Under the pieces are notes generated by a model. That model did not search any database and was not told the DNA's origin. It saw nothing but the letters and a program-made list of their open reading frames with translations. A stretch of DNA of 64,000 bases from Parundibacterium terreum (GTDB taxonomy: Bacteria; Pseudomonadota; Gammaproteobacteria; Burkholderiales; Burkholderiaceae_D), in contig NZ_BMED01000003.1 in NCBI RefSeq assembly GCF_014636315.1, forward strand, positions 558,001 to 622,000, read 5' to 3'. Positions within the stretch are counted from its first letter, which is position 1, and each line of letters opens with the position of its first letter. The position numbers were made by a program, and so were the translations under genes. This document shows, one piece after another, positions 4,517-27,715 of the stretch.

Positions 4517-4645
4517 GGTCTTTCACCTTCATTCAAAAGTATCCGTGCTGCGGAATGCCTGCAGCAATGACCCAACTGTAGCAGCCGGCGCGGTGTTTAC
4601 TCCAATAGCAAATATGGCATTCATCTATCTCAAAACGGCATACGC

Positions 4646-11920: not shown

Positions 11921-13201
11921 TCATTTGTTCTTGTTATACACGTCCACAAAGACCGCTGCCAGCAATACCAGTCCCTTGATCACCTGCTGGTAGTCGATGC
12001 CTATGCCCATGATGGACATGCCGTTGTTCATCACGCCCATCACAAAGGCGCCGATGACCGCGCCCATTACTTTGCCGACGCCGCCGGATGCGGATGCGCC
12101 GCCGATGAAGCAGGCTGCAATCACGTCCAGTTCAAAGCCGGTACCTGCCTTTGGCGTAGCCGTGTTCAGGCGAGCCGCAAAGATCAGGCCGGCCAGTGCT
12201 GCGAGCATGCCCATGTTGACGAAGGTATAGAAAGATACGCGCTCGGTCTTGATGCCGGACAGGCGTGCTGCTTTTTCATTGCCGCCCACTGCATATACAC
12301 GGCGGCCCAGTACCGTCCGGTTGGCTATGAAGGTGTACGCGACCATCAGCACAAACATCACGATCAGCACGTTAGGCATGCCTTTATAAGAGGCCAGCAG
12401 GTAGCTGAAGTACACGATCACAGCAGCGAAAACAGCATTCTTCAGGAAAAAAAACTGATACGGCTCATCCACCATGCCATAGCGCGCCTGTTTCAGGCGG
12501 CTGCGGAGTTTGACAAAGATCAGGATTGCCGCAACGATCACGCCAACGACCAATGAAGTCACGCGGAACTCGCCGGTTTCTATCAGTTCTGGAATAAAGC
12601 CCGAGCTCAGGCGCTGGAATCCGTCAGGGAAGGGGCCTACCGATTGTCCCTGCAAGAGCGCCAGCGTCAGGCCCTTGAAGACCAGCATGCCGGCCAGCGT
12701 GACGATGAAGGCGGGTATGCGGAAGAAGGCGACAAAATATCCCTGCGCAGCGCCGATAATGGCGCCTGCTACCAGGCAGATCAGCGCGGCCAGCATGAAA
12801 TTCATGTTGTAGTTGACGATCAGTACTGCCGCCAGCGCACCGATAAAACCGACCACCGAGCCCACCGACAGATCGATATGGCCTGCCACGATCACCATCA
12901 GCATGCCCAGCGCCATGATGACGATATAGCTGTTCTGCAAGACTAGGTTGGTCAGGTTCAGCGGCTGCATCAGCGTGCCGTCCGTCATCACCTGGAAGAA
13001 AGCCATGATCGCGATCAGCGACATCAGCATGCCGTATTCGCGCATATTGTTTTTCAGGAAGCTGCCGTAGCCCTTGCCTTGGGCATCCTGCTCTGCCGGG
13101 ATATTCTTTACGTCTTTCATACTTGTCGTTCCTGATGTAATTTCCGATACTGCTTCAGATGCAATGCCGGCGGAGTCCGCCGTAGCCAGTTTATTTGCCA
13201 T
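11921..13201 (-). CDS. gguB: multiple-sugar ABC transporter permease (GguB/XylH-like)
   Basis: Inner-membrane permease of about 426 residues for the ChvE-GguAB sugar importer. There is an N-terminal cytoplasmic stretch and then many membrane segments; the family motif [20 protein letters not shown] is seen near residue 108, and [20 protein letters not shown] near the C-terminus, both as in ribose/xylose/galactose-type permeases. The start at 13201 (MANKL) has AGAAGG five bases upstream and overlaps the end of gguA by 11 bases; an ATG at 13216 lacks a site. It is the last gene of the leftward chvE-gguA-gguB operon and ends near a terminator. Confidence 0.9.
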
Positions 13202-14732
13202 GATTGCCTTCTCCATTCTTGACGATTGCCCGCATGATTTTTTCCTGGCTGGCTTCCGCTATAGGAAATTCCGCGACGAAATTGCCCTCGTTCATCACAT
13301 AGATGCGGTCGCACATGCCCAGCAGTTCCGGCATCTCGGATGAGATCATGATGATGCCTTTGCCTTCTGCGGCGAGCTGGCTGATGATGCTGTAGATTTC
13401 ATATTTGGCGCCGACGTCGATGCCACGGCTGGGTTCGTCCAGTATCAGGATGTCCGGATTGGAGAACAGCCATTTGCTCAGCACGACCTTTTGCTGGTTG
13501 CCGCCGGAAAGATTCAATACCTTCTGGAATACATTCGAGCTGCGTATCTTCAGCTTGCTGCGGTAGTCTGCAGCGACTGAGTATTCGCGGCCTTCATCGA
13601 TCACCAGCTTGCTGGACACGCCTGGCAGGTTGGCCAGGCTGACGTTGCGCTTGATGTCGTCTTCCAGGATCAGGCCCAGGCCTTTCCTGTCTTCGGTTGC
13701 ATAGGCGAGGCCGTGCCGGATGGCCTTTTGTATACTGCTGACATCGATCTGCTGGCCGTTTTTCAATACCTTGCCGCTGATATTGCGGCCATAGGAGCGG
13801 CCGAAGATACTCATCGCCAACTCAGTGCGGCCGGCACCCATCAGGCCGGCGATGCCGACAATCTCGCCTTTTCTGACATTGAAGCTGACGCCCTTGATGA
13901 CCTGCCGTTCCGCCTGCTCGGGATGATGCACGCGCCAGTCCTGCACTTCAAAGATGGTTTCGCCTATCTGCGGAGTGCGCTTCGGATAGCGGTCCGCCAT
14001 TTCGCGGCCTACCATGTTCTGGATGATCCTGTCTTCGCTGATCGGCTCCTTGCGGCAGTCAAAACTTTCCACTGTCGTGCCGTCACGCAGCACCGTGATC
14101 GCGTCGGCCACCTTGGAGATTTCATTCAGCTTGTGCGAGATCAGGATGGAGGAAATACCCTGCTGCTTCAGTTCCAGCAGCAATTCCAGCAAGGCATCGC
14201 TGTCGCTTTCATTCAAGCTGGCGGTAGGCTCATCCAGGATCAGTAGTTTGACTTCCTTGGAGAGCGCCTTCGCAATCTCTATCAGCTGCTGCTTGCCGAC
14301 ACCGAGGCTGTTGACCAGGGTATTCGGCAATTCATTCAGGCCCACCTTCTGCAGCAGTTCGCGTGTCTTGGTATACGCCAGCGCCCAGTCGATGATGCCG
14401 TTTTTTGATTGTTCGTTACCGAGGAACAGGTTCTCCGCAATGGATAGCAGCGGTACCAGAGCCAGTTCCTGGTGAATGATGATGATGCCGATTTTTTCGC
14501 TATCGGAGATATCCTTGAACTGCCTTGTTTCGCCGTGATACAGAATGTCACCGGAATAGCTGCCGTGGGGATAGACGCCGCTGAGGACTTTCATCAGCGT
14601 TGATTTGCCGGCTCCGTTCTCTCCGACTATCGCGTGAATCTCGCCGCTACGAACTTGAAGATTGACATTGTCCAGCGCTTTCACACCGGGGAAGGTCTTC
14701 CTTATCCCGCGCATTTCCAGGATAGTATTCAT
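13191..14732 (-). CDS. gguA: multiple-sugar ABC transporter ATP-binding protein (GguA-like)
   Basis: Protein of 513 residues with two fused ATPase domains, as in monosaccharide importers. The first has Walker [10 protein letters not shown] and Walker [12 protein letters not shown]; its signature is degenerate (SLGVGKQQ). The second has a degenerate P-loop (GLMGAGRTE) but a full signature LSGGNQQ and [11 protein letters not shown]. The start at 14732 follows AGAGG by seven bases; in-frame codons further upstream belong to the gap after chvE. It energises sugar import together with GguB and ChvE. The family is sure; the sugar range is inferred from the neighbours. Confidence 0.92.
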
Positions 14733-14849
14733 CTTATAACCTCTTAAGTCCGCGTTCTCCCCAATAGCGGGAAAGCGGACAGTTTGTCTCAAACTCTTGA
14801 TTTTATTTTGCCTGCCACAATGGATCAGACGCAGACTGGGCTCAGACCC

Positions 14850-14884
14850 AACGGATGCAGTGGCAGCGGCGCACTGCATCCGTT
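14850..14884 (-). repeat. strong intercistronic hairpin between chvE and gguA
   Basis: AACGGATGCAGTG (14850-14862) and CACTGCATCCGTT (14872-14884) pair perfectly over 13 bases around a nine-base loop. There is no T-run after it on the coding strand. Placed between the binding-protein gene and the ATPase gene, it may protect the chvE message or reduce read-through, so that binding protein is made in excess. Confidence 0.65.
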
Positions 14885-14919
14885 TTCAGGACATTATAGT
14901 AGTGGCTGTTAGCCCGCTA

Positions 14920-15987
14920 TTATTTGAACTGTGCTTCTGTGTAGTAGCCGCTGCCTGTGACTAGGATCTGCTTCCAGTTGGATGCATCCACGCTGACTGG
15001 TTTCAACAGGTAGGAAGGTACTACCTTCACACCGTTGTTGTAGGTTTTAGTATCGTTGATCTGAGGCGTTTTACCGCTCAGGACAGCGTCTACCATGCCT
15101 ACAGTGACTTTAGCCAGTTCACGCGTATCTTTGAACACGGTGGATTTTTGTTCGCCGCGCAGGATGGATTTAACGGAAGCAACTTCCGCATCCTGGCCGG
15201 TGACGATAGGCATAGGCAGTTTAGGTGTGCCATAGCCCACGCCTTTCAGCGAAGACAAAATACCGATGCTCAGGCCGTCGTATGGGGACAATACTGCGTC
15301 CACATGGCTGTTGGTGTAATAGGCGCTCAGCAGATTGTCCATGCGTGCCTGTGCAACAGCGCCATCCCAGCGCAGCGTGGAAACTTTGTCCATGCCGAGC
15401 TGTTTGCTGCGTACGACCAGCTTGCCGCTGTCGATGTAGGGCTTCAGTACCGACATCGCGCCGTTGTAGAAGAAGAATGCGTTGTTGTCGTCCGCGGAAC
15501 CGCCGAACAATTCGATATTGAAAGGACCTTTGCCTGCTTTCAGGTTCAGTGCGGTTTCAATATAGCTGGCCTGCATGACGCCAACCTGGAAGTTGTCGAA
15601 AGTGGCGTAGTAATCCACGTTCTTGGAACCGCGGATCAGCCTGTCGTAAGCGATGACCTTGATGCCCTTGTCGGCCGCTTTTTGCAAGGCATTGGACAGA
15701 GTGGTGCCGTCGATCGCAGCAATCACCAGAACTTTGACGTTCTTGGTGATCATGTTTTCGATCTGGGCCAATTGGTTAGGAATATCGTCGTCTGCGTATT
15801 GCAGATCGGTCTTGTAGCCGCGTTCCTTGAATACCTTGACCATATTGTCGCCGTCAGCAATCCAGCGAGCGGAAGCCTTGGTTGGCATGGAAATGCCGAT
15901 CGGGCCTTTTTCCTGGGCGCCTGCCAGAGGGGCGGCCGCCACGATACCGATCGCAAGTCCTGCGACCATAAATTTGATCATTTTCAC
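14920..15987 (-). CDS. chvE: ChvE-type multiple-sugar periplasmic binding protein
   Basis: Periplasmic binding protein of 355 residues that captures aldoses for GguAB. A signal peptide ends near APLAGA. The mature part is very close to Agrobacterium ChvE over its whole length, with shared phrases [41 protein letters not shown]-like [46 protein letters not shown] and [14 protein letters not shown]. ChvE binds galactose, arabinose, glucose and related sugars. The GTG start at 15987 has GGAG seven bases upstream; an ATG two codons on is further away. It is the first gene of the operon and is transcribed from the operator/promoter block at 16199-16267. Confidence 0.95.
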
Positions 15988-16198
15988 AAACTGTCTCCTG
16001 TTATTTTGATGCCTGCATTTAAATATGTTGCAGCAGGCAAGCGCAGGTCAAGCTGGCTTGCCTACCTTCCCCCGCATCGACACCGGCGCGTAGCTGTGCT
16101 CCGTCACCTGTTTTTGCGATCGCAATGTGAACTGCCCGGTAGGCTCCTTCAGATATTGCCGGAAGGGAGCCTGTACTTTGGGCTTCATTTCGATGCGT

Positions 16199-16267
16199 GG
16201 ATACTAAATTGTCTAAAGATATCTTTCTAATGACTTTTTAACTAAATTTGATATCGAATTTGGTATC
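16199..16267 (-). promoter_or_regulatory. LysR-type operator and promoter block for chvE (copy A)
   Basis: Read on the minus strand, it begins GATACC-N6-GATATC, has GAAAGATATC 41 bases in, and a -10-like TAGTAT at offset 62-67 (16206-16201). It matches copy B at 59 of 69 positions, including 24 identical bases in a row in the middle. The layout fits a recognition site near -65 and an activation site near -35 of a LysR-type activator, with a poor -35 hexamer. The likely regulator is the GbpR-like protein at 22069. Confidence 0.7.
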
Positions 16268-16417
16268 TGCTGCGCTGAAAGCCCCGCGCAAAAGCCGCCA
16301 ATTATGAACCTTTGCCCGCAGCTTTGCTGCCAGCATTCCAAACGTGCCTCAAAACTTGGCATGAGGGTGGTGTTTTTGACAGTTTATTGGGCAAAAACAG
16401 GCGATAGGCTGAAATTT

Positions 16418-16486
16418 GATATCAAATCCGGTATCAAATTGGGGAAAAAAGTCATTAGAAAGATATCTTCAGACTGTTTAGTATCC
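16418..16486 (+). promoter_or_regulatory. LysR-type operator and promoter block for the dehydratase operon (copy B)
   Basis: Starts GATATCAAATCC-GGTATCAA, in which TTGATA and TATCAA form an inverted repeat; GAAAGATATC lies at offset 41-50 and TAGTAT at 16479-16484 serves as a -10 candidate. It is the mirror copy of 16199-16267, pointing rightward to the gene at 16588. Spacing between the three elements is the same as in copies A and C. Confidence 0.7.
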
Positions 16487-16587
16487 GTACACTTTACGCT
16501 TCACACTGGCTGTGATTGGGCCCGGGCAAGTTGGCCTGGCCAAGGCCAAATACCCGAAATATAAAACAAAATAGTTTGGAAACAAGT

Positions 16588-18327
16588 ATGTCCGAGACAA
16601 AGAAAGTGCGTCTGCGCTCCGCAGAATGGTTTGGTACAGCAGATAAAAATGGCTTCATGTACCGTAGCTGGATGAAAAACCAGGGTATTCCCGATCATGA
16701 GTTCCAGGGCAAGCCCATCATTGGCATCTGCAATACCTGGTCTGAACTCACCCCCTGCAATGCGCACTTCCGCAAGATCGCAGAACACGTCAAGCGCGGC
16801 ATCCTGGAAGCCGGCGGCTTTCCGGTAGAGTTTCCGGTGTTTTCCAACGGCGAGTCCAACCTGCGTCCTACCGCGATGCTGACCCGCAACCTGGCCAGTA
16901 TCGACGTGGAAGAATCCATACGCGGTAATCCCATGGATGCAGTGGTGCTGCTGGTGGGCTGCGACAAGACCACGCCCGCACTATTGATGGGTGCAGCAAG
17001 CTGCGACGTGCCGGCAATCGTAGTCAGCGGCGGCCCTATGCTGAACGGCAAGCACGAAGGCAAGGACATAGGATCAGGCACGGCAGTATGGCAACTGCAC
17101 GAGGCAGTGAAGGCCGGCCAGATCACTATGCATCAATTCATGTCGGCAGAGTCCGGCATGTCGCGCTCTGCCGGCACCTGCAATACCATGGGTACGGCCT
17201 CCACGATGGCCTGCATGGCCGAAGCGCTGGGCACTTCGCTGCCGCACAATGCTGCCATCCCTGCGGTTGATTCGCGCCGCTATGTATTGGCGCACATGTC
17301 AGGCATACGCATCGTGGAAATGGTGTGGGAAGATCTGCGCCTGTCCAAGGTGCTGACCAAGGAAGCATTTGAAAATGCGATACGCGTCAATGCGGCTATA
17401 GGCGGCTCCACCAACGCAGTGATCCACCTGAAGGCGATAGCCGGCCGCATGGGCGTGCCGCTGGAACTGGAAGACTGGACCCGCATAGGGCGCGAGACAC
17501 CAACTATCGTTGATCTGATGCCTTCCGGCCGTTTCCTGATGGAAGAGTTTTATTATGCCGGCGGCTTGCCGGGAGTGCTGCGCCGCCTGGGCGAAGCGAA
17601 CCTGATTCCGCACAAGGATGCACTGACCGTGAACGGCAAGAGCATCTGGGAAAACACCAGCGCCGCGCCTATCTATAACGACGAAGTGATACGCCCGCTG
17701 GACAAGCCCCTGATCGCAGACGGCGGCATCAGTATCCTGCGCGGCAACCTGGCCCCGCGCGGTGCGGTACTGAAACCTTCCGCCGCGTCGCCGGAACTGA
17801 TGCAGCATCGCGGCAAGGCAGTTGTCTTTGAAAATTTTGACCACTACAAGCAGCGCATCGTTGATCCGGATTTGGATGTGGATGCCAGCTCGGTGCTGGT
17901 GATGAAGAATTGCGGCCCCAAGGGCTACCCCGGCATGGCAGAGGTCGGCAATATGGGCTTGCCGCCTAAGTTGCTGGCCCAGGGCGTGAAGGACATGGTG
18001 CGTATTTCGGATGCCCGCATGAGCGGTACCGCCTATGGCACCGTGGTGTTGCACGTTGCGCCGGAAGCCGCCGCCGGCGGCCCGCTGGCCATCGTGCAGG
18101 ACGGTGACTATGTCGAGCTGGATTGCCATGCAGGCCGCCTGCATCTGGATATCAGCGATGAAGAAATGGCCAGTCGCCTGAAGCAATTGGGTGAGCAACC
18201 ACCATTGCCGATACAGAGCGGCTACCAGCAACTGTATATAGACCGGGTATTACAGGCGGACGAAGGTTGCGATTTTGACTTCCTGGTCGGTTGCCGCGGC
18301 TCGGCAGTTCCCAAGCATTCACACTAA
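16588..18327 (+). CDS. IlvD/Edd-family sugar-acid dehydratase, probable L-arabonate dehydratase
   Basis: Cytoplasmic 2Fe-2S enzyme of 579 residues that removes water from an aldonate to give a 2-keto-3-deoxy acid. The cluster cysteines Cys57 (TPCN), Cys125 (VGCDKT) and Cys198 (GTCNTMG) are in place, two positions before those of the Rhizobium L-arabonate dehydratase, and the catalytic serine lies in DARMSG. The start at 16588 follows a weak GGA site; no ATG further up is preferable. It leads an operon with an AraD1/GguC protein, a ketoglutarate semialdehyde dehydrogenase and a sugar dehydrogenase, which is the non-phosphorylative pentose pathway, so arabonate is the likely substrate; xylonate is the alternative. 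Its paralogue is at 24223. Confidence 0.88.
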   Translation: MSETKKVRLRSAEWFGTADKNGFMYRSWMKNQGIPDHEFQGKPIIGICNTWSELTPCNAHFRKIAEHVKRGILEAGGFPVEFPVFSNGESNLRPTAMLTRNLASIDVEESIRGNPMDAVVLLVGCDKTTPALLMGAASCDVPAIVVSGGPMLNGKHEGKDIGSGTAVWQLHEAVKAGQITMHQFMSAESGMSRSAGTCNTMGTASTMACMAEALGTSLPHNAAIPAVDSRRYVLAHMSGIRIVEMVWEDLRLSKVLTKEAFENAIRVNAAIGGSTNAVIHLKAIAGRMGVPLELEDWTRIGRETPTIVDLMPSGRFLMEEFYYAGGLPGVLRRLGEANLIPHKDALTVNGKSIWENTSAAPIYNDEVIRPLDKPLIADGGISILRGNLAPRGAVLKPSAASPELMQHRGKAVVFENFDHYKQRIVDPDLDVDASSVLVMKNCGPKGYPGMAEVGNMGLPPKLLAQGVKDMVRISDARMSGTAYGTVVLHVAPEAAAGGPLAIVQDGDYVELDCHAGRLHLDISDEEMASRLKQLGEQPPLPIQSGYQQLYIDRVLQADEGCDFDFLVGCRGSAVPKHSH

Positions 18328-18391
18328 TACTTTATTTGCCGGTGGCCGGCGGACGTCCGCTGTCCATGCAAAATAAAAGACAGGAGACAAT

Positions 18392-19399
18392 ATGTTATTG
18401 GTACAGTTTAAAGATGCGCAAGGCGCGCGCCGCGTAGGTTGCCTGCAAAACGGCAATACGGCAATCCGTGTGCTGGATGCGTATACCAGCACCTATCAAC
18501 TGGCGCAGGCTGCGATTGCAAAGAAGTGCAAGCTGGAAGCCGTTGTTACTGCCGCTCTCGGCGCTACCGTTGTGGCTTACAGCGAAGTAGCAGAGCAGGG
18601 CCGCCTGCTGCCGCCGCTGGATCATACGGATAACGCACACTGCTTCGTGACCGGCACCGGCCTCACGCATCTGGGCAGCGCCGATACGCGCGATGCAATG
18701 CACAAGAAGGTGGATGGCGCGATTGAATCCCTGACCGATAGCATGAAGATGTTCCGCCTGGGCCTGGAAAACGGCAAGCCTGCCGCCGGCCAGCATGGAG
18801 TGCAGCCGGAATGGTTTTACAAGGGAGACGGTTCCATCGTCAGCGCCAGCGGCCAGGATTTGCGCATGCCTGCATTTGCGCTGGATGGTGGCGAAGAGCC
18901 TGAGATTGCCGGCCTGTACGTGATAGGCGCAGACGGCAAGCCCTACCGTATCGGTTTTGCACTGGGTAATGAATTTTCAGATCATGTCACCGAGCGCCAG
19001 AACTACCTGTATCTCGCACACTCCAAATTACGTACCTGTGCGGTAGGCCCGGCACTGCTGGTGGGCGATTTGCCGTCGCACGTAGCCGGTACCTCGGGCA
19101 TACGCGATAGCCAGGGTGCGATGCGCTGGCAAAAGCCTTTCGTCAGCGGAGAAGACAATATGTCGCATACGATCTCCAATCTTGAATACCATCATTTCAA
19201 ATATCCTTTATTCTGCCGTCCGGGCGATGTGCATGTGCATTTCTTTGGCACTGCCACACTGAGTTTTGCTGAAGGCATTAAAGTGGAACAGGGAGAGAGC
19301 TTCGAAATAGAAGTCGAAGCCTTCGGACCCCCTCTGCGCAACCGCCTGGTCGTCGATGCCGAGCCGGCCTTTGTGCAGAATCTCGTTACAAGCTTATAA
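18392..19399 (+). CDS. gguC: AraD1/GguC-family fumarylacetoacetate hydrolase-like protein, probable 2-keto-3-deoxy-L-arabonate dehydratase
   Basis: Protein of 335 residues of the FAH superfamily. Recognisable parts are the family core TGTGLTHLGSADTRDAMH, FALGNEFSDHVTERQNYLYL, SKLRTCAVGPALLVGDLP and the C-terminal CRPGDVHVHFFGTATLSFAEG. Acidic metal ligands sit in EPEIAGLYVI and GNEFSDH. The position between an aldonate dehydratase and a semialdehyde dehydrogenase argues for the second dehydration step, making 2-oxoglutarate semialdehyde from 2-keto-3-deoxypentonate. GguC of Agrobacterium is linked to the same transporter, which agrees with this place. Enzyme activity is inferred from pathway logic. 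Confidence 0.85.
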   Translation: MLLVQFKDAQGARRVGCLQNGNTAIRVLDAYTSTYQLAQAAIAKKCKLEAVVTAALGATVVAYSEVAEQGRLLPPLDHTDNAHCFVTGTGLTHLGSADTRDAMHKKVDGAIESLTDSMKMFRLGLENGKPAAGQHGVQPEWFYKGDGSIVSASGQDLRMPAFALDGGEEPEIAGLYVIGADGKPYRIGFALGNEFSDHVTERQNYLYLAHSKLRTCAVGPALLVGDLPSHVAGTSGIRDSQGAMRWQKPFVSGEDNMSHTISNLEYHHFKYPLFCRPGDVHVHFFGTATLSFAEGIKVEQGESFEIEVEAFGPPLRNRLVVDAEPAFVQNLVTSL

Positions 19400-19411
19400 A
19401 CTGAAAGAATT

Positions 19412-20992
19412 ATGTTGAATATTACAGGCGAGGCGCTGATCGGCGCTGCAAGCGTACGCGGTACAGGCGAAGCATTTCGCGCGTTTTCCCCAGTCAGCGG
19501 CGAGGATCTGCAACCGGAATTTCATACCGTAGGCCTGGCGGAAATAGCCAGCGCAGCCACGCTGGCACAGGCGGCTTTTGATAGCTACCGCGAAACCGAC
19601 AAGGACAGCCGTGCGCGTTTCCTGGAGACGATAGCCGAGCAGATACTGGAGCTGGGCGATGAGCTAATCCAGAGGGCTATGGCGGAAAGCGGCTTGCCGC
19701 GCGCCAGGCTGGAGGGCGAACGCGGCCGTACCGTTGGCCAGTTGAAACTGTTTGCTGAAACGCTGCGCGAAGGTTCGTGGCTGGACGCACGGCTGGATAC
19801 GGCTTTGCCGGAACGCGCAATTCCACGGCCGGATATCCGCATGCGCATGATAGCGCTGGGCCCGGTAGCGGTGTTTGGCGCCAGTAATTTCCCATTGGCT
19901 TTTTCAGTTGCAGGCGGAGATACCGCATCGGCGCTGGCTGCCGGTTGCCCGGTGGTCGTGAAAGCGCATCCGGCGCACCCCGGTACTTCCGAGCTGGTAG
20001 GGCGGGCGATACAAAAGGCGGTTGCCCTGTGCGGCTTGCACGAAGGCGTATTCTCACTGCTGACCGGCATAGGCAATGGCCTGGGCGCCGACCTGGTACG
20101 TCATCCTGCGATACAGGCGGTGGGCTTTACCGGGTCCCGCCAGGGTGGCTTGGCACTGATGGCGATTGCCGCCGCCAGGCCGCAGCCTATTCCCGTATAT
20201 GCGGAAATGAGCAGCATCAATCCTGTTTTCCTGCTGCCGCAGGCGCTGGCAAGCCGCGGCGAAGTGATTGCAAGCGGTTTTGCAGCATCGCTGACTTTGG
20301 GCGTAGGACAGTTTTGCACCAATCCAGGCCTGATACTTGGCATCAAGGGTAAGGACTTTGAACGTTTTGCAGAGCAGGCGGCGCAGGCATTGGCGGCGGC
20401 ACAGCCCGGTACCATGCTGACGCCCGGCATTTCCGCTGCCTATCAGCGTGGTGTGGATGGCCTGGCCCGGCATCCCAAGGTCAAGACCTTGAAGCAGCGC
20501 GCTGCGGCTACGGCATCATGCCAGGCTGCACCCGCCTTGTTCATCACCGAGGCCAGCGACTTTTTGGCAGAGCATGCGCTGTCCGACGAAGTGTTTGGCC
20601 CTTCTTCGCTGCTGGTGGCATGCAAGGATGTCGCAGAGATGCGCCAGGTAGCGGAAAAGCTGGAAGGCCAATTGACCGCGACGCTGCAAATGGATGACGC
20701 AGATACCGAAATGGCGCTGGGCTTGCTGCCTGTGCTGGAACGCAAGGTCGGCCGCATCCTGGTCAATGGTTTCCCTACCGGCGTGGAAGTGTCCACCGCG
20801 ATGGTGCATGGCGGCCCTTTCCCTGCGACGTCGGATAGCAAGAGTACATCGGTTGGAACGGCAGCGATCTTCCGTTTCCTGCGCCCGGTATCCTATCAAA
20901 ACATGTCGCAGGCCTTGTTGCCGGCAGCATTAAAGGACGGCAATCCTTTGCAGATCTGGCGGCGCAAGGACGGCCAGCTCGGCAGGGCATAG
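19412..20992 (+). CDS. NADP-type aldehyde dehydrogenase, probable 2-oxoglutarate semialdehyde dehydrogenase
   Basis: Protein of 526 residues of the aldehyde dehydrogenase superfamily, of the type used for 2,5-dioxopentanoate. Catalytic residues are present: Asn159 in GASNFPLAF, Lys184, Glu265 in YAEMSSINP and the nucleophile Cys302 in GVGQFCTNPG. It follows the AraD1/GguC gene by only 12 bases and a weak ribosome site precedes its ATG. The expected reaction is oxidation of the semialdehyde to 2-oxoglutarate, which enters the TCA cycle and ends the pentose branch. Confidence 0.88.
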   Translation: MLNITGEALIGAASVRGTGEAFRAFSPVSGEDLQPEFHTVGLAEIASAATLAQAAFDSYRETDKDSRARFLETIAEQILELGDELIQRAMAESGLPRARLEGERGRTVGQLKLFAETLREGSWLDARLDTALPERAIPRPDIRMRMIALGPVAVFGASNFPLAFSVAGGDTASALAAGCPVVVKAHPAHPGTSELVGRAIQKAVALCGLHEGVFSLLTGIGNGLGADLVRHPAIQAVGFTGSRQGGLALMAIAAARPQPIPVYAEMSSINPVFLLPQALASRGEVIASGFAASLTLGVGQFCTNPGLILGIKGKDFERFAEQAAQALAAAQPGTMLTPGISAAYQRGVDGLARHPKVKTLKQRAAATASCQAAPALFITEASDFLAEHALSDEVFGPSSLLVACKDVAEMRQVAEKLEGQLTATLQMDDADTEMALGLLPVLERKVGRILVNGFPTGVEVSTAMVHGGPFPATSDSKSTSVGTAAIFRFLRPVSYQNMSQALLPAALKDGNPLQIWRRKDGQLGRA

Positions 20993-21070
20993 GCACGATA
21001 GGTACGGCCAGCCTGCAGGAGCAGGCAAGATAAAATTTAACTAAGTAAGCGCAACAAAGGGGACAATAAA

Positions 21071-21847
21071 ATGAGTGGCAATCTTCAATTGGCACAATAC
21101 GGCAGCCTGAAGGGCAAGCGGGTTTTTATCACCGGCGGCGGCACAGGCATCGGCGAATCACTGGTGGCGGCATTTGCAGAGCAGGGCGCAAAGGTCGCCT
21201 TCGTTGATATCCAGAAGGATGCCAGCGAGGCTTTATGCATCAAGCTGAAGCAGGCCGGTCTGGAGGCGCCGCTGTTCCGCCATTGCGATATCACCGATAT
21301 CCCGGCGCTGCAAAAAACCATGCAGGAACTCGCCGCAGAGATCGGCGATTTCGATGTGTTGGTGAATAACGCCGCAAATGACCAGCGCCACAATCTGGAA
21401 GAAGTGACGCTGGACTACTGGAACGAACGTATCGCGATCAACCAGCGCCCGATGTTCTTCACCAGCCAGGCCGTTGTGCCCGGCATGAAGAAAAAAGGCG
21501 GCGGCTCCATTATCAATGTCAGCTCTATCTCCTGGCATATCAAGGGTGCAGGCTACCCTGCATACACAACGACCAAGGCCGCAGTCATCGGCCTGACCCG
21601 CGGCCTGGCACGCGACCTCGGTCCGCATAACATCCGTGTCAATACGGTCACGCCCGGCTGGGTCATGACAGAGCGCCAACTGGCGCTGTGGGTGGATGAA
21701 CAAGCGGAGAAAGATATCAAACAAAACCAATGCCTGCCGGACAAGCTGCTGCCTATGCATATTGCCCGCATGGTGTTGTTCCTGGCATCCGACGATAGCG
21801 TGATGTGCACGTCGCAGGAATTCATCGTTGACGCCGGCTGGAGTTAG
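21071..21847 (+). CDS. short-chain dehydrogenase, probable galactose/arabinose (aldose) 1-dehydrogenase
   Basis: NAD(P)-dependent enzyme of 258 residues. The cofactor motif TGGGTGIG (21-28), NNAA (99-102), serine(s) in SSIS and the catalytic Tyr165-x3-Lys169 pair are intact. Overall it resembles the Caulobacter xylose dehydrogenase XylB (shared phrases such as PGMKKKGGGSIINVSSISWH and NIRVNTVTPG), so it should oxidise an aldopyranose at C1 to the lactone. It is the last gene of the pentose operon; no other sugar dehydrogenase is present in the cluster, so the same enzyme probably starts both the arabinose and the galactose branch. Confidence 0.85.
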   Translation: MSGNLQLAQYGSLKGKRVFITGGGTGIGESLVAAFAEQGAKVAFVDIQKDASEALCIKLKQAGLEAPLFRHCDITDIPALQKTMQELAAEIGDFDVLVNNAANDQRHNLEEVTLDYWNERIAINQRPMFFTSQAVVPGMKKKGGGSIINVSSISWHIKGAGYPAYTTTKAAVIGLTRGLARDLGPHNIRVNTVTPGWVMTERQLALWVDEQAEKDIKQNQCLPDKLLPMHIARMVLFLASDDSVMCTSQEFIVDAGWS

Positions 21848-21966
21848 GCCTGCTCGGCATTACTGAGTAAGTGGTGTTGAGTACTTGATTTTTCTTCACC
21901 AGCCGGCACTGTGGGTGTTTTGCAGCGCCTCCTTGCCGCATGCGGTTGGCTCCACAACTGCATGGT

Positions 21967-22022
21967 CCTTGCTTAGCCGGTTCGGGTTCTCCCCCTAGAC
22001 CGGCGGCGGGATAGAAGCAAGG
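21967..22022 (+). ncRNA. structured element downstream of the pentose operon
   Basis: CCTTGCTT (21967-21974) pairs with AAGCAAGG (22015-22022), and inside it CCGGT (21977-21981) pairs with ACCGG (21999-22003), with GGG/CCC pairing further in. This gives a nested fold of about 56 bases just before the terminator. The strand is uncertain; the fold is equally possible on the minus strand. It could be a 3' end-protecting structure or a small RNA tail. Confidence 0.4.
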
Positions 22023-22031
22023 CCGGCTTTT

Positions 22032-22068
22032 AACCACTCTCCTTCATTTGAATGAGAGTGGTTTTTTT
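22032..22068 (+). terminator. terminator of the dehydratase operon
   Basis: AACCACTCTC (22032-22041) and GAGAGTGGTT (22054-22063) form a 10-pair stem with a 12-base loop, followed by TTTTTT on the plus strand. It lies just before the stop of the convergent LysR gene, so it ends the rightward pentose operon. Confidence 0.85.
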
Positions 22069-23010
22069 CTAGTACATTTCCTTGGCGGCGACGCGTATGG
22101 CGTCAAGCAATAGTCTTGCGCCCGGCGACAGCAAGTGGCTGCGCCGCGTGATGATACCGAACGCATCCATCTTGATCGGCAGCTCTATTGGCAAGATGCT
22201 CAGGATATTCAGTTGCGCATAGTAGCGCGCCACCTCCACCGGCAGCACATGCAGGAAATCTGTCTGTTGCAGCAGCGATGTGATCATCAGGATGGCGGTG
22301 GTGTCAATCACGTTTACCGGCGGCTCCAGCCCCTGTTTGCGGAACATCATGTCGCAACGATGGCGCAGCACGCTGCCCTGCGGCGACAGTATCCAGCCTT
22401 CCTTGACCATGTCCTTCAGTTCCAGCCCCAGTGCACCTTCCAGCGGGTGGCCTACGCGGCCGACCGCGCACACCGGTTCCTCTGCCAATTCTTCGTACAG
22501 CAGGTCGGAGCGGTCTTCCTGATCCAGGATGCGGCCCACCATGAAATCCAGCGTGCCGCGCTGCAGGCGCTTCAGCAGGATATTACTGGTTTCCAGTTGC
22601 ACGCCTATGCGCAGCATGGGTGCCTGCTGCTTGACGCGGGAAATGGCGCGCGGCAGCAAGGACATGCCGGGTGTCATGATGACGCCGGCCTCCACCTGGC
22701 CGGACAGGCCGGATTTGAGCGCGACGATATCTTCATGCGCCAGCGACAGGCTGGTGAGCGCCATTCTTGCATGGCGTATCATCGTCTCGCCGTAGATAGT
22801 CGGCTGCATGCCGCGCGGTGTACGGTCAAATAGCTGGATTTCCAGCATATCTTCCAGGTCTTTCAACTGCTTGGAAGCGGCCGGCTGGGTCATGTGCAGT
22901 GCGTCTGCCGCCCTATGGATGTTTCTTTCCTCATCCAGCGCAATCAGCAGCAACAATTGACGGGTCTTGAGCCTGGCGCGCAGGAACCAGTTCGAATTGG
23001 TATTTTCCAC
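22069..23010 (-). CDS. gbpR: LysR-family regulator of the GbpR type
   Basis: DNA-binding regulator of 313 residues. The N-terminal winged helix-turn-helix (RNIHRAADALHMTQPAASKQ) is followed by a ligand-binding domain. The overall reading matches GbpR, the LysR regulator linked to chvE in Agrobacterium and Azospirillum. The start is a GTG at 23010 with only a weak purine-rich site. It sits between the pentose and hexose operons, is transcribed away from dgoK, and the operator block at 23054-23120 lies between the two starts, so it probably controls itself as well as chvE, the dehydratase operon and dgoK. The effector is probably a sugar or sugar acid, not proven here. Confidence 0.85.
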   Translation of the reverse strand: MENTNSNWFLRARLKTRQLLLLIALDEERNIHRAADALHMTQPAASKQLKDLEDMLEIQLFDRTPRGMQPTIYGETMIRHARMALTSLSLAHEDIVALKSGLSGQVEAGVIMTPGMSLLPRAISRVKQQAPMLRIGVQLETSNILLKRLQRGTLDFMVGRILDQEDRSDLLYEELAEEPVCAVGRVGHPLEGALGLELKDMVKEGWILSPQGSVLRHRCDMMFRKQGLEPPVNVIDTTAILMITSLLQQTDFLHVLPVEVARYYAQLNILSILPIELPIKMDAFGIITRRSHLLSPGARLLLDAIRVAAKEMY

Positions 23011-23053
23011 GTGTTTTCTTTATGGCAAGAATGGTAGCGAAGCTAGTGACCAT

Positions 23054-23120
23054 GATATCAGAATCGATATTAAAACTACCGAAATATTGATTGGAAAGAT
23101 ATTAAGCCCGGTTTTAACAT
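23054..23120 (+). promoter_or_regulatory. LysR-type operator and promoter block for dgoK (copy C)
   Basis: GATATCA starts at 23054, GATATTA half-sites and GAAAGATATT follow, with the second site 44 bases after the first, and a -10-like TAACAT at 23115-23120. Offsets of all three elements equal those in copies A and B, although the sequences between them differ. It lies between the gbpR start and dgoK. Confidence 0.6.
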
Positions 23121-23150
23121 AGCTGCCATCCCGACTTGGAACACGGCTTC

Positions 23151-24164
23151 ATGAATATTGTCACTATTGATACAGGAACGACCAATACCCGCAGCAGCCT
23201 GTGGATAGATGGGCAACTGAAGGCACAGGCTCACGCGGAGGTCGGTGTGCGGGATACGGCGATCAACGGCAGCAATGCCGCATTGAAGCAAGCTGTGCGC
23301 GATACCGTGAACGGCGCCCTGTCGCAGGCAGGCTTCGCCGAAGAGCAGGTGGACCTGATGCTGGCGTCCGGCATGATCACTTCCAATGTCGGCCTGTCCG
23401 AGATACCGCATTTGCCGGCGCCGGCAGGCTTGCAGGAGCTGGCGCAGGGCATGCAGAGCGTGGTCATGCGTGAAGTGTTTCCGCAGCCGGTATGGTTTAT
23501 ACCCGGCGTACGCAATAGCGTCGACAAGGTCGGCCTGCACAACCATGAAGCGATGGACATGATGCGCGGCGAAGAAACCGAGGCCATGGCCTTGCTTGCG
23601 CGCCTCAAGCTGCAAGGGTCGGCAATGATCATCCTGCCGGGTTCGCATACCAAGCTGGTATCGATAGACAATGAACAGCGCATCGTCGGCTGCGCCACTT
23701 CCATCGCCGGCGAGTTGCTGCAGGCGATCACCCAACATACCTTGCTGAAAAAATCGGTGGAAGGCGAATTTGCCAGCGAACTGCATCCGGAGATGCTGCT
23801 GGCCGGTGCCGCTGCCGCGCAAAGGACAGGATTGGCGCGCGCCTGCTTCAGCGTGCGCATCCTGGATTTGTTCACTGAGTCGCAATTGAATGAAAAAGCC
23901 AATTTCCTGCTGGGCGCAGTATTGAGCGGTGATCTGCTGACCTTGAAGAACAGCAGCGCGATACGCATGCGCCCGGACACCAGCATTATTATTTCCGGCA
24001 AGCCGATGCTGAGGCAGGCGCTGGCATTGCTGATCAAGGAAAACGGATTCTTTTATGGAAAACAGATCGTCGTCAATGACGAGGATCAGGATAACCTCGC
24101 AGGCTTTGGCGCAATCACGATTGCGGCAGCGCGCGGACTGGTTCCGCAGGCAGCTGCACAGTAA
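23151..24164 (+). CDS. dgoK: 2-dehydro-3-deoxygalactonokinase
   Basis: Cytoplasmic kinase of 337 residues that phosphorylates 2-keto-3-deoxy-D-galactonate. Recognised by MNIVTIDTGTTNTRSSLW (phosphate 1 loop), SGMITSNVGLSE, GVRNSVDKVG, MRGEETEAM and LPGSHTKLVSID, all typical of DgoK. The ATG at 23151 is taken as the start; a TTG at 23136 is possible but lies within the expected short leader. It leads the second operon with a dehydratase 58 bases on, and an aldolase follows further downstream. Its presence shows that a hexonate route (De Ley-Doudoroff) is encoded, not only the pentose route. Confidence 0.92.
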   Translation: MNIVTIDTGTTNTRSSLWIDGQLKAQAHAEVGVRDTAINGSNAALKQAVRDTVNGALSQAGFAEEQVDLMLASGMITSNVGLSEIPHLPAPAGLQELAQGMQSVVMREVFPQPVWFIPGVRNSVDKVGLHNHEAMDMMRGEETEAMALLARLKLQGSAMIILPGSHTKLVSIDNEQRIVGCATSIAGELLQAITQHTLLKKSVEGEFASELHPEMLLAGAAAAQRTGLARACFSVRILDLFTESQLNEKANFLLGAVLSGDLLTLKNSSAIRMRPDTSIIISGKPMLRQALALLIKENGFFYGKQIVVNDEDQDNLAGFGAITIAAARGLVPQAAAQ

Positions 24165-24222
24165 GAACATTAGTACATACGACGTAACATTAAAACAGAA
24201 CTTTCAGAGACAGATCAGAAAC

Positions 24223-25947
24223 ATGACACAAGCTAAGAAACCCCTACGTTCGCACGCCTGGTTTGGCGGCGATGATAAAGACAGCTTCATCCACCGTAGC
24301 TGGATGAAAAACCAGGGCTACCCTAGCGATGCCTTCGACGGCCGGCCCGTCATCGGTATCTGCAATACCTGGTCCGAGCTTACACCTTGCAACGGCCATT
24401 TCCGTGAGCTGGCAGAATCGGTCAAGCGCGGCGTGCTGGAAGCGGGCGGTTTTCCTGTCGAGTTTCCTGCGATGTCCCTGGGTGAATCCAATCTGCGCCC
24501 GACGGCAATGCTGTTCCGCAACCTGGCGAGCATGGACGTGGAAGAATCGATACGCGCCAATCCTATCGACGGCGTTGTACTGCTGACCGGCTGCGATAAA
24601 ACGACGCCGGCCCTGCTGATGGGCGCTGCCAGTTGCGATCTGCCTACCATCGTATTGTCCGGCGGCCCTATGCTGAACGGCAATTACCGCGGCAAGCCTA
24701 TCGGCTCCGGCACCGATGTCTGGAAATTTTCTGAAGACCTGCGCGCAGGCCGCATGACATTGAACAGTTTCAAGCAGGCAGAATCCTGCATGTCCCGCTC
24801 CACCGGCCACTGCATGACCATGGGTACAGCCTCCACCATGGCCAGCATGGTCGAAGCTCTGGGCGTGACTTTGCCGGGCAATGCGGCGATTCCTGCCGTC
24901 GATGCACGCCGCAAATTGCAGGCGCAACTGACAGGCCGCCGCATCGTTGATATGGTGCACGAAGACTTGAAGCTGTCTCAAATCCTGACCAAGCAGGCAT
25001 TTGAAAATGCCATCATGGTCAATGGCGCGATAGGCGGTTCCACCAACGCAGTAGTCCATCTGCTGGCGATTGCCGGCCGCATCGGCGTTGACCTGACACT
25101 GGCCGACTGGGACAGGCTGGGCCGCGAAATCCCTTGCTTGCTGAACCTGATGCCGTCCGGCCAGTATCTGATGGAAGATTTTTACTACGCAGGCGGCCTG
25201 CCTGTGATCATCAAGGACTTGCTGCAAAGCCTGCATGGCGATGCACTGACCGTGACCGGTCAAAGCCTGGCAAAAAATGTGGAAGAGGCAGAGAACTTCA
25301 ACACGGACGTAATTCACTCGGTGAATACGCCGTTTAAGGAAGAGGGCGGTATTGCGGTATTGAAAGGCAATCTGTCCCCACGCGGCGCAATCATCAAGCC
25401 ATCTGCGGCAACGCCTGATCTGATGCAGCATCGCGGCCGCGCGGTCGTGTTCAACAGCATAGAACACTACAAGGAAAGAGTGGATGATCCGGATCTGGAT
25501 ATCGATGCGAGCTGCATCATGGTGCTGCAGAACTGCGGCCCCAAGGGTTATCCAGGCATGGCGGAAGTCGGCAATATGGGTTTGCCCAAGAAATTGCTGG
25601 AACAGGGCGTACGCGATATGGTGCGCATTTCCGATGCACGCATGAGCGGCACCGCCTTTGGCACTGTGGTCTTGCACGTGGCGCCGGAAGCGGCGATGGG
25701 CGGCCCGTTGGCGCTTGTGCGCGATGGCGACATGATAGAACTGGATGTGGCAGGCCGCCGCTTGCACCTGGATGTGAGCGATGAAGAACTGGCCCGCCGC
25801 CAAAGCGAGTGGAAGGCACCGGAGCCTGCCATGCGCGGCGGGTACCAGGAAATGTATATCAAGCATGTATTGCAGGCTGATCAGGGCGTGGATCTGGACT
25901 TCCTGGTGGGTTGCCGCGGTGCAGCAGTACCGAGAGAATCGCATTGA
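24223..25947 (+). CDS. IlvD/Edd-family dehydratase, probable D-galactonate dehydratase
   Basis: Second paralogue of the 2Fe-2S sugar-acid dehydratases, 574 residues. The cluster cysteines are Cys56, Cys124 and Cys197 (STGHCMTMG), and the catalytic serine motif DARMSG is kept. It is close to the protein at 16588 along its full length, so one arose by duplication. The start at 24223 follows a poor ribosome site. Being between dgoK and a KDPGal-type aldolase, it should convert D-galactonate to 2-keto-3-deoxygalactonate. In well-known bacteria that step is done by DgoD of the enolase superfamily, so this would be a different enzyme family for the step. Function is inferred from position. Confidence 0.85.
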   Translation: MTQAKKPLRSHAWFGGDDKDSFIHRSWMKNQGYPSDAFDGRPVIGICNTWSELTPCNGHFRELAESVKRGVLEAGGFPVEFPAMSLGESNLRPTAMLFRNLASMDVEESIRANPIDGVVLLTGCDKTTPALLMGAASCDLPTIVLSGGPMLNGNYRGKPIGSGTDVWKFSEDLRAGRMTLNSFKQAESCMSRSTGHCMTMGTASTMASMVEALGVTLPGNAAIPAVDARRKLQAQLTGRRIVDMVHEDLKLSQILTKQAFENAIMVNGAIGGSTNAVVHLLAIAGRIGVDLTLADWDRLGREIPCLLNLMPSGQYLMEDFYYAGGLPVIIKDLLQSLHGDALTVTGQSLAKNVEEAENFNTDVIHSVNTPFKEEGGIAVLKGNLSPRGAIIKPSAATPDLMQHRGRAVVFNSIEHYKERVDDPDLDIDASCIMVLQNCGPKGYPGMAEVGNMGLPKKLLEQGVRDMVRISDARMSGTAFGTVVLHVAPEAAMGGPLALVRDGDMIELDVAGRRLHLDVSDEELARRQSEWKAPEPAMRGGYQEMYIKHVLQADQGVDLDFLVGCRGAAVPRESH

Positions 25948-25989
25948 CGCAGACGGTGATACGGCCATTAAGATAAATGATGGCCTTAG

Positions 25990-26027
25990 TATTGCCGTAC
26001 CATAGTCATACTATAAGTACGGCAATA
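25990..26027. repeat. 38-base hyphenated palindrome between the hexose dehydratase and lactonase genes
   Basis: TATTGCCGTAC (25990-26000) pairs with GTACGGCAATA (26017-26027), and ATAGT-CAT-ACTAT lies in the centre. No T-run follows. It could be an operator, a processing hairpin, or a weak terminator splitting the operon; the lactonase start is 41 bases on. Confidence 0.6.
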
Positions 26028-26068
26028 GTCATACAATGCGCTGACCCTCAACCAAACTCTGTGCGACC

Positions 26069-26959
26069 ATGAGCCAAGTAAATCTGCTAGTCGATGCCAA
26101 GAACCAGTTAGGCGAATGCGTGCTGTGGTGTGACCGCACCCGGCGCGTATTCTGGACCGATATCCAGTCCGCTCGCCTGCATGCGCATTCCCCAGTAAGC
26201 GGTGAGACGCAGACCTGGGAGTTGCCTGAGCGTCTGTGCAACTTCGCTTTTACCGAAGACAGCAACCGCCTCCTTGCAGGGTTTGCATCCGGTTTTTCAT
26301 TTTTTGATTTGACCACCGCGGCCATCACGCCGATTTGCAAGGTGGAAGCCGATTTACCAGATACCCGCCTGAATGACGGCCGTTGCGACCGTCAGGGGCG
26401 CTTTGTCTTTGGCACCATGAATGAAGCAGAAGAGAAGACAGCCATAGGCAGTTTCTATCGCCTGAATGCGGACCTGTCGCTGGAACGCCTGCCGCTGCCG
26501 TCTATCGCGATAGCGAATAGCATCTGCTTCAGCCCGGACGGTAATTCCATGTTCTATTGCGATTCCATGCAAGGCATTATCCATCGCTGGGACGGTTATG
26601 GCAGCGGCAATACCGATGCCGGCCAGTTCCATATATTTGCCGATTTGAGTGCCGATACGGGCGCACCGGATGGCTCCTGCATCGATGCGGAAGGTTTTCT
26701 ATGGAATGCCCAATGGGGCGGCAAGCGCGTTGTGCGCTATGCACCCGACGGCCGCGTTGACATCAGCCTGGATGTGCCAACCTCGCAGCCTAGCTGCGTA
26801 TGCCTGGGTGGCGAGCAACTGGATCAGCTATTTGTCACCACGGCCCGTGAGTCGATGTCGGAAGAGCGTATCGCCAGGCAGCCGCAGGCCGGCGGACTAT
26901 TCCATGCACAGTTGCAAGGCATACGCGGGCTTGCAGAAAACCGCTTCATCACTGGCTAA
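26069..26959 (+). CDS. SMP-30/gluconolactonase-family sugar lactonase
   Basis: Protein of 296 residues, a six-bladed beta-propeller lactonase. It shows the usual metal-site landmarks: Glu in LGECVLW near the N-terminus, Asn in RLNDGRCDRQG, and Asn/Asp in ANSICFSPDG and the late GAPDGSCIDAEGFLWNAQWGG. It should hydrolyse the galactono- or arabinonolactone made by the dehydrogenase. It is the only lactonase in the cluster, so it probably serves both branches. The gene follows a palindrome and may be read from the dgoK operon or partly by itself. Confidence 0.88.
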   Translation: MSQVNLLVDAKNQLGECVLWCDRTRRVFWTDIQSARLHAHSPVSGETQTWELPERLCNFAFTEDSNRLLAGFASGFSFFDLTTAAITPICKVEADLPDTRLNDGRCDRQGRFVFGTMNEAEEKTAIGSFYRLNADLSLERLPLPSIAIANSICFSPDGNSMFYCDSMQGIIHRWDGYGSGNTDAGQFHIFADLSADTGAPDGSCIDAEGFLWNAQWGGKRVVRYAPDGRVDISLDVPTSQPSCVCLGGEQLDQLFVTTARESMSEERIARQPQAGGLFHAQLQGIRGLAENRFITG

Positions 26960-27052
26960 CATCTTGATATGAACGCTTCTGATGTGAGGGGCGCATCAAG
27001 AACCGCAGCAAGATCACGCCAAGGCCACATCAAGCACTACACTAAGGATCAC

Positions 27053-27715
27053 ATGCTGAAACACACATTATTCCAGGCCATACTCGATCGCGGCATGGTC
27101 GCCATTGTCAGGGCCGATACCGCAGACGCGGCATTGCAACTAGCAGAGGCCTGCATCGCAGGCGGCATGGATGCGCTGGAAATTGCATTCACTACGCCGG
27201 ATACGCTGGATGTGATCAAAACCCTGCGCCAGCGCCATGGCGATAAAGTATTTCTCGGTGCCGGCACGGTGCTGGACCCGGAAACCGCGCGCCTGGCCAT
27301 CCTGGCCGGCGCCAAGTTCATTATTTCGCCCAGCGTCAGCACAGAGACCATACGCCTGTGCCAGCGCTATCAGGTATTATCCATGCCCGGTGCAATGACG
27401 CCAACCGAGATATTGACAGCGCTGGAAGCAGGTGCAGACATCATCAAGGTTTTTCCTGCGGAAGCCTTCAGCCCGGCCTATATCAAAGCGTTGCGCGCGC
27501 CGCTGCCGCAAGCGCCGCTGATGCCCACCGGCGGCGTTACCCTGGAAAATCTGCACTTGTGGTTTGAGCAGGGCGCGGTTGCGGTCGGCATAGGCGGCAG
27601 CCTGACTGCTCCCGCTGCAAAAGGCGATTACGCCGCAGTGACAGCCAATGCAGCGGCCTTTGTACAGCGCATGGCCGGTATACGTCAAAAACAATCGGGC
27701 TCGAAAGCATCATGA
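27053..27715 (+). CDS. dgoA: KDPG/KDPGal-type aldolase (2-dehydro-3-deoxy-6-phosphogalactonate aldolase)
   Basis: Class I aldolase of 220 residues that splits the phosphorylated keto-deoxy acid into pyruvate and glyceraldehyde 3-phosphate. The Schiff-base lysine is Lys132 in IIKVFPAEAF and the catalytic glutamate is Glu43 in LEIAFT. Together with DgoK it completes the hexose branch; with DgoK present the galactonate form is the likely substrate, and KDPG is also possible. The start at 27053 follows AGGA; an ATG at 26969 is less likely. Its stop overlaps the next start (ATGA). Confidence 0.88.
   Translation: MLKHTLFQAILDRGMVAIVRADTADAALQLAEACIAGGMDALEIAFTTPDTLDVIKTLRQRHGDKVFLGAGTVLDPETARLAILAGAKFIISPSVSTETIRLCQRYQVLSMPGAMTPTEILTALEAGADIIKVFPAEAFSPAYIKALRAPLPQAPLMPTGGVTLENLHLWFEQGAVAVGIGGSLTAPAAKGDYAAVTANAAAFVQRMAGIRQKQSGSKAS

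Follow-up and report, generated by a model that had tools for sequence, protein, structure and literature searches.

Three copies of a conserved LysR-type promoter module at a putative GbpR-like sugar regulon

Introduction

The control of chvE in Agrobacterium is the described system closest to the locus considered here. PMC4086400 describes the LysR-type regulator GbpR as controlling chvE in the presence of sugars. A gbpR gene adjoining a sugar-binding-protein gene is mentioned for Roseobacter in PMC3141670. For divergent promoters, a relevant case is that of ThnR, which, according to PMC4834489, can activate each of two such promoters independently. In the open-access literature, no description of the operator presented below or of any GbpR-like operator was found; subscription papers, including the original GbpR paper, lay outside the scope of this search.

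The window, i.e., the whole 64,000-nucleotide stretch of DNA that was analysed, contains three related 69-bp blocks (A, B, and C). As judged from the sequence, they are copies of a genuine LysR-type promoter module that is conserved and has clear limits, and whose general type is ordinary and well known. The mildly unusual point is the near-identity of the two mirrored copies, A and B. The module yields a concrete and testable model of the sites of GbpR-like regulators, and it is useful as a regulon signature.

Site models and sampled genomes

Two models of the module were used, both free of window sequence. The first is a matrix built from 13 blocks of other genomes, chosen by eye in upstream regions. 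The second, R1, contains 43 blocks and is derived from a larger collection, gathered near relatives of the LysR gene using matrices seeded from the window layout. Removal of blocks more than 85% identical reduced this collection from 124 to 70, both counts including the three window blocks (70 = 67 external + 3). R1 took 43 of the 67 external blocks, and the remaining 24, chiefly lower-scoring, were left out by hand.

Relatives of the regulator were collected by a search with an alignment as query, and the best 80 of 571 were kept as named loci, from Janthinobacterium, Collimonas, Massilia, Herbaspirillum, Duganella, Undibacterium, Roseateles, and others. Ten plasmid loci were added, three from the 15 listed of 3039 matched records and seven from the 25 listed of 163 matched records. 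Gene positions in S. meliloti and Tritonibacter were taken from tblastn (records unannotated).

Organization of the locus

The features of the locus are collected in Table 1. Leftward from A run chvE, mmsA, and mmsB, and rightward from B runs an operon of dehydratase, GguC/AraD1-family, aldehyde dehydrogenase, and SDR dehydrogenase genes. C sits in the gap between the gbpR-like gene at 22069 and the divergent dgoK, and rightward from it are dgoK, dehyd2, and the gluconolactonase-like, aldolase, and mutarotase genes. The three operons presumably serve multi-sugar uptake, the oxidative breakdown of pentoses, and galactose degradation by a De Ley-Doudoroff route, their substrates being putative. 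Judging by its neighbours, the aldehyde dehydrogenase probably acts as a 2,5-dioxovalerate dehydrogenase.

Table 1. Genes and predicted promoter modules of the locus (window positions)
Feature	Position	Strand	Basis or remark
mmsB-like permease	11921..13216	-	Position and tblastn matches in chvE-mmsA-mmsB loci
mmsA-like sugar ABC transporter ATPase	13191..14732	-	
chvE, multiple-monosaccharide binding protein	14920..15987	-	558.5 bits, cut-off 460
Module A, promoter of chvE-mmsA-mmsB	16199..16267	-	LysR-type operator-promoter, predicted
Module A palindrome	16267-16250	-	GATACC-N6-GATATC
Module A A-tract and second site	16239-16218	-	
Module A -35	16229-16224	-	TAGAAA
Module A -10	16206-16201	-	TAGTAT
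Module B, promoter of first dehydratase operon	16418..16486	+	LysR-type operator-promoter, predicted
Module B palindrome	16418-16435	+	
Module B second site	16446-16467	+	
Module B -35	16456-16461	+	TAGAAA
Module B -10	16479-16484	+	TAGTAT
IlvD/EDD-family sugar-acid dehydratase (dehyd1)	16588..18327	+	PRK06131 above cut-off
GguC / AraD1-family protein	18392..19399	+	523.4 bits, cut-off 340
Aldehyde dehydrogenase	19412..20992	+	Aldedh; NCBIfam equivalogs all below cut-off
SDR sugar 1-dehydrogenase	21071..21847	+	Nearest NCBIfam D-xylose 1-dehydrogenase, below cut-off
GbpR-like LysR-type regulator	22069..23010	-	HTH_1 and LysR_substrate
Module C, promoter of dgoK operon	23054..23122	+	LysR-type operator-promoter, predicted
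Module C palindrome	23054-23071	+	
Module C second site	23082-23103	+	
Module C -35	23092-23097	+	TGGAAA
Module C -10	23115-23120	+	TAACAT
dgoK, 2-keto-3-deoxygalactonokinase	23151..24164	+	PF05035, 1.3e-42
Second IlvD/EDD-family dehydratase (dehyd2)	24223..25947	+	PRK06131 and PRK13016 above cut-off; start codon by reading
Gluconolactonase-like	26069-26959	+	
KDPG-type aldolase	27053-27715	+	
Aldose 1-epimerase	27712-28650	+	

Two further features lie around A and B. The predicted 5' leader of chvE is about 200 nt long (15988-16194). A 14-nt inverted repeat (16104-16117 / 16391-16404, 93% complementary), possibly due to chance, is so placed that the first arm lies some 80 nt past module A, whereas the second arm is just to the inside of module B.

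The protein encoded at 22069 has LysR DNA-binding and substrate-binding domains. It is 41% identical to the product of the LysR gene beside chvE in Azospirillum brasilense, which we take to be the published GbpR, and 34% identical to that of the LysR gene beside chvE in S. meliloti. Among the 25 NCBIfam families listed of 56, none reached its cut-off, and a GbpR model is absent among those listed. An identity as PcaQ was considered and rejected: it is the best family, yet it scores 166.8 bits against a cut-off of 303.8. In a tree of 98 relatives, the 22069 protein falls outside the strongly supported clade (100/99) that holds the regulators of the six other genomes of the same genus. It sits closest to the proteins of Janthinobacterium CG3 and S3T4, two genomes that also have the divergent chvE-dehydratase layout. 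Movement of the cluster between genera (horizontal exchange) or loss of a second copy could have caused this position.

Three copies of one module

Re-measured from the sequence, A and B are identical at 59 of 69 positions, with a longest unbroken run of 24, and they face outward with 150 nt between the arms; the coordinates and counts given in the earlier note are correct. C is identical to A at 42 and to B at 39 of 69 positions. The earlier note had also assigned C the same internal spacing. This holds, with GATATC/GATATT at offset 45 (44 bases on) and TAGTAT (A), TAGTAT (B), and TAACAT (C) at offsets 62-67, and C is found by models that contain no window sequence. A chance origin is opposed by shuffling and by reversed-sequence controls: the top inverted 69-base match within 15991-16590 is 59, compared with at most 40 in 100 mononucleotide shuffles.

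The module is restricted to three operons in this genome. When B was used as a BLASTN query against the whole 6.37 Mb genome, A was recovered at E 2.4e-16, C was missed, and apart from A no full-length copy was returned. The 13-block matrix scored B at 76.7, A at 76.0, and C at 51.4 bits, the runner-up in the 64 kb reaching only 11.1. The motif scan that the earlier note had suggested was carried out with R1, which gave whole-genome E values of 5.5e-15 for B, 1.7e-13 for A, and 1.5e-10 for C, followed by a partial match at 0.013; in the 6.37 Mb, full-length copies occur nowhere except at A, B, and C.

Two sets of weaker candidates were discarded. Additional regulon members elsewhere in the genome would have to be sought among merely partial matches of at most 18.3 bits, which is about the level seen in members of the genus that lack the regulator (up to 19.1 bits). 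The other candidate, a weak 11-bit site of the window at 4604-4672, runs across the beginning of a further reading frame that looks LysR-like by eye.

Module anatomy

In the 70 non-redundant blocks, high information is found at offsets 2-18, 29-50, and 62-67, each with some weak positions. Outside the block, no position exceeds 0.4 bits and the flanks are unconserved. Since the layout of the window served as seed for the collecting matrices, part of the conservation within the block follows from the way the blocks were gathered; the flanks are unaffected by this. Offsets 1-18 form the palindrome GATAYC-N6-GRTATC. T3 and A16 are present in all 67 external blocks, ATAY at 2-5 occurs together with RTAT at 14-17 in 54 of them, and T35 together with A48 in 53; the conserved stretch 29-50 contains the -35 element. 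Each block is composed of a palindrome and one conserved downstream half-site, rather than of two equal sites. The earlier note had described two sites 44 bases apart. The spacing stands, but the supposed first site consists of two half-sites 12 bp apart, a palindrome, and the pair as read there joins the first half of this palindrome to the second half of the downstream site.

The T-N11-A pattern is not universal among LysR sites. In the present blocks, which were collected with a fixed spacing so that others would be missed, the palindrome symmetry from T3 to A16 is T-N12-A and not the usual T-N11-A. This spacing is one base wider than that given for LysR sites in PMC4834489. Consequently, the claim is limited to a module that would work like a LysR promoter, with this deviation.

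The downstream half of the block resembles a promoter. Offsets 39-44 match TTGACA at 3.31 of six positions (flanks 1.47) and are a better -35 fit than 38-43, and offsets 62-67 match TATAAT at 3.85 of six (flanks 1.38), with a spacer of 17 bp between the two elements. The -35 element is TTGACA itself in two Azospirillum chvE copies and in the S. meliloti copy. With the -10 element at 62-67, the start is predicted at about offset 74, i.e., near 16194 (A), 16491 (B), and 23127 (C). Since the palindrome is centred at offset 9.5, its centre would lie at about -64, in agreement with the LysR primary site near -65, and the second half-site would be centred at about -32, over the -35 box. Relative to the predicted start, this geometry is the arrangement published for LysR activators. 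The LysR two-site layout that the earlier note had claimed before chvE, the first dehydratase operon, and dgoK is supported.

Conservation and co-occurrence with the regulator

Extended to relatives, the scan found the module at 22 bits or more in 77 of the 80 named loci, some of which share genomes with seed blocks (e.g., L105, L125, L134, and L154); in the same 80 loci reversed, none reached this score and the maximum was 9.7. In L148, L165, and L166 the site is absent within the locus; for L148, however, a site of 42.8 bits is present on a different contig of its genome (G022). The genus and family scans described next applied stricter filters, under which weak matches can be lost. Within the genus, sites above 40 bits occur in seven of 43 genomes, which are precisely the seven with a regulator more than 70% identical (p 3e-8), R1 holding blocks from four of these seven. 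In six genus genomes with just a 44-46% paralogue, all sites score at most 19.1 bits. The pathway gene gguC is found in the same seven genomes, and therefore pathway and regulator are inseparable there.

The family sample comprised 245 genomes (thresholds E 1e-5 for the motif and E 1e-110 for the regulator). Motif and regulator occur together in 93 of them, the regulator only in three, the motif only in two, one of which is 48% complete, and neither in 147; as R1 was partly built from this family, these counts are no independent test of the model. The earlier note had named a lack of conservation in related genomes as the finding that would speak against it. The module is instead present in the 77 loci mentioned and in 95 of the 245 family genomes, which would allow the regulon to be recognised from sequence in a large number of genomes.

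The module also extends beyond the family. Eight of the plasmid loci carry a LysR relative immediately next to the operon, and in all of these the top match falls at an operon start, with scores of 29.4 (Comamonadaceae), 45.8 and 42.0 (two Paraburkholderia), 30.2 and 29.9 (two Azospirillum), 36.4 (S. meliloti), 21.2 (Tritonibacter), and 9.2 (Pseudosulfitobacter, weak); the reversed-sequence maximum across the ten loci is 2.8. In Pseudosulfitobacter and Tritonibacter, the neighbouring LysR protein shares only about 30% identity with that of the window over 294-299 residues. The module is absent (best scores -8.0 and -10.3) from the chvE loci of Phyllobacterium and Terrarubrum, the two in which no LysR gene adjoins the operon; a Phyllobacterium LysR, 29% identical over 192 residues and so close to the level of the two weak neighbours just named, was scored absent as it lies three genes' positions from chvE. 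The copies before chvE in Azospirillum and Sinorhizobium are weaker.

Azospirillum has three copies, before chvE, an SMP-30 gene, and ytfQ. The one before ytfQ, which encodes a galactofuranose-binding protein (L223:2010-2078, L226:1417-1485), suggests a wider regulon in this genus.

Assignment of the regulator

Conservation of the module, its co-occurrence with the regulator, and the chvE copies in Azospirillum and Sinorhizobium lead to the view that one GbpR-like LysR protein most likely controls the uptake, pentose, and galactose branches. The earlier note had put forward a single regulon with the 22069 gene as its probable regulator, and on the grounds of conservation and co-occurrence this gene is by far the best candidate. 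It is improbable that the modules, though real, are read by another regulator and that 22069 is a co-inherited neighbour. Regulator and pathway genes are indeed co-inherited in the genus, and for this reason co-occurrence alone is unable to separate the two roles. However, none of the other 12 assigned genes in 11921-28650 is regulator-like in a scan without antisense ORFs and ORFs below 120 aa, and the nearest other regulator is an AraC/GyrI-type gene at 29588-30463. Moreover, the site is LysR-like in geometry and lies inside the divergent LysR gap, both here and in Paraburkholderia and Azospirillum loci. The AraC-type gene was itself considered as the regulator and rejected, since none of 108 relative loci, the majority extending about 10 kb from the LysR gene, contains a relative of it at E 1e-10.

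Taken as a whole, the three blocks very probably represent a single activator-dependent promoter of the sigma-70 type, present in triplicate and recognised by the 22069 protein. This protein would occupy the upstream palindrome, ATAY-N8-RTAT, and with inducer would also take the downstream half-site, so that RNA polymerase would be recruited to a promoter with a poor -35, the 17-bp spacer, and a -10. The inducer may be an intermediate, either a sugar or a sugar acid, of one of the oxidative routes for pentose or galactose. In this mechanism, A would drive ChvE-MmsAB uptake, B the pentose-type operon, and C the galactose operon of the De Ley-Doudoroff type. Counted from the start codon of the regulator gene itself, C begins 44 bases upstream, where it would be placed for autorepression.

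Origin of the mirrored pair

A divergent chvE/dehydratase arrangement was seen in at least four genomes, namely the window genome, Janthinobacterium sp. S3T4, Janthinobacterium sp. CG3, and UBA5157, and all four have one outward module per side. The two modules are identical at 59, 49, 43, and 41 of 69 positions, respectively, and their palindromes are 168, 92, 154, and 109 bp apart. The two-promoter layout is therefore shared among them, and near-identity is particular to the window genome. The earlier note had taken the long mirrored pair as a sign that a whole promoter was duplicated. This is only partly supported: the mirrored layout does recur in the four genomes, but the other three pairs match at 41-49 of 69 positions. 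As the same layout exists elsewhere with diverged copies, the 59 matches look later or local, and by themselves they are no record of how the divergent layout arose. Tandem pairs are another arrangement: in three Collimonas-type loci, two modules 136-137 bp apart precede a chvE-led operon in place of a mirrored pair (L104:13580-13785, L083:1090-1295, and L086:2728-2932).

One reading, given somewhat less than an even chance, is that the present sequence of B derives recently from A, as an overwrite by gene conversion or a copy by local duplication, once the divergent layout was already in place. Where conservation is weak (32 columns), A and B agree at 24, compared with 10.3 +/- 3.4 in 2211 external pairs (binomial P 8e-7). 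Over the full module, their 59 matches are the highest of 29 same-locus pairs, the next being 49 (CG3, with 43, was added later). The direction of copying fits as well: of the 32 columns, 24 agree between A and the chvE module of S3T4, but only 12 between B and the S3T4 dehydratase counterpart. Against this, similarity ends at the module edges, with 3 of 15 matches just outside each side and 16 and 17 of 60 over 60 bases. A copied tract would have no cause to stop at these edges, which makes shared selection for the same strong module an alternative. In addition, the Undibacterium dehydratase module (G004) also matches A at 19 and B at 17 of the weak columns. Homogenisation and shared selection both stand as possible explanations of the near-identity.

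A broader, joint reading is rather unlikely. It holds that the 69-bp module is kept rigid with a GbpR-like regulator across Beta- and Alphaproteobacteria, in the geometry of a T-N12-A palindrome, 32 bp to the second site, and a 17-bp spacer, and that A and B are kept near-identical by gene conversion (concerted evolution). Such concerted evolution would possibly occur since A and B act together through a loop. Far less credible still is the view that the inverted pair represents the ends of a small MITE-like mobile element that carried the promoters. A 69-nt inverted repeat with 150 nt between its arms does have this appearance, but in place of the multiple copies of MITE or IS ends the whole genome holds no further full-length copies besides C. 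Counterparts also precede the same genes in other genera with the differing spacers given above, and the conserved bases are distributed as in a promoter. In the A/B pair, nature provides a test case for the question whether divergent LysR promoters undergo homogenisation or act cooperatively.

Comparison with known systems

As with Agrobacterium GbpR (PMC4086400), the proposal involves a LysR regulator for chvE, the gene of a multiple-sugar binding protein. The GbpR comparison extends to the Azospirillum and Sinorhizobium loci, where a module of the same layout precedes chvE and a LysR relative adjoins it. Set against the Agrobacterium GbpR-chvE system as described, the window differs in having the module at two catabolic operons as well. 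A second difference from the described system is that the window chvE is divergent from the first dehydratase operon, with mirror-image modules.

The ThnR system at thnB/thnC (PMC4834489) is similar in that a single LysR activator has sites at both members of a closely spaced divergent promoter pair. ThnR requires the co-activator ThnY, and its promoters cooperate through a DNA loop (PMC4834489). The spacing of A/B-type pairs varies among the four genomes, from 92 to 168 bp. Finally, the locus can be likened, by description, to that of Halomonas AraR (PMC5507952), where a predicted LysR regulator is associated with an oxidative L-arabinose locus and a reconstructed motif.
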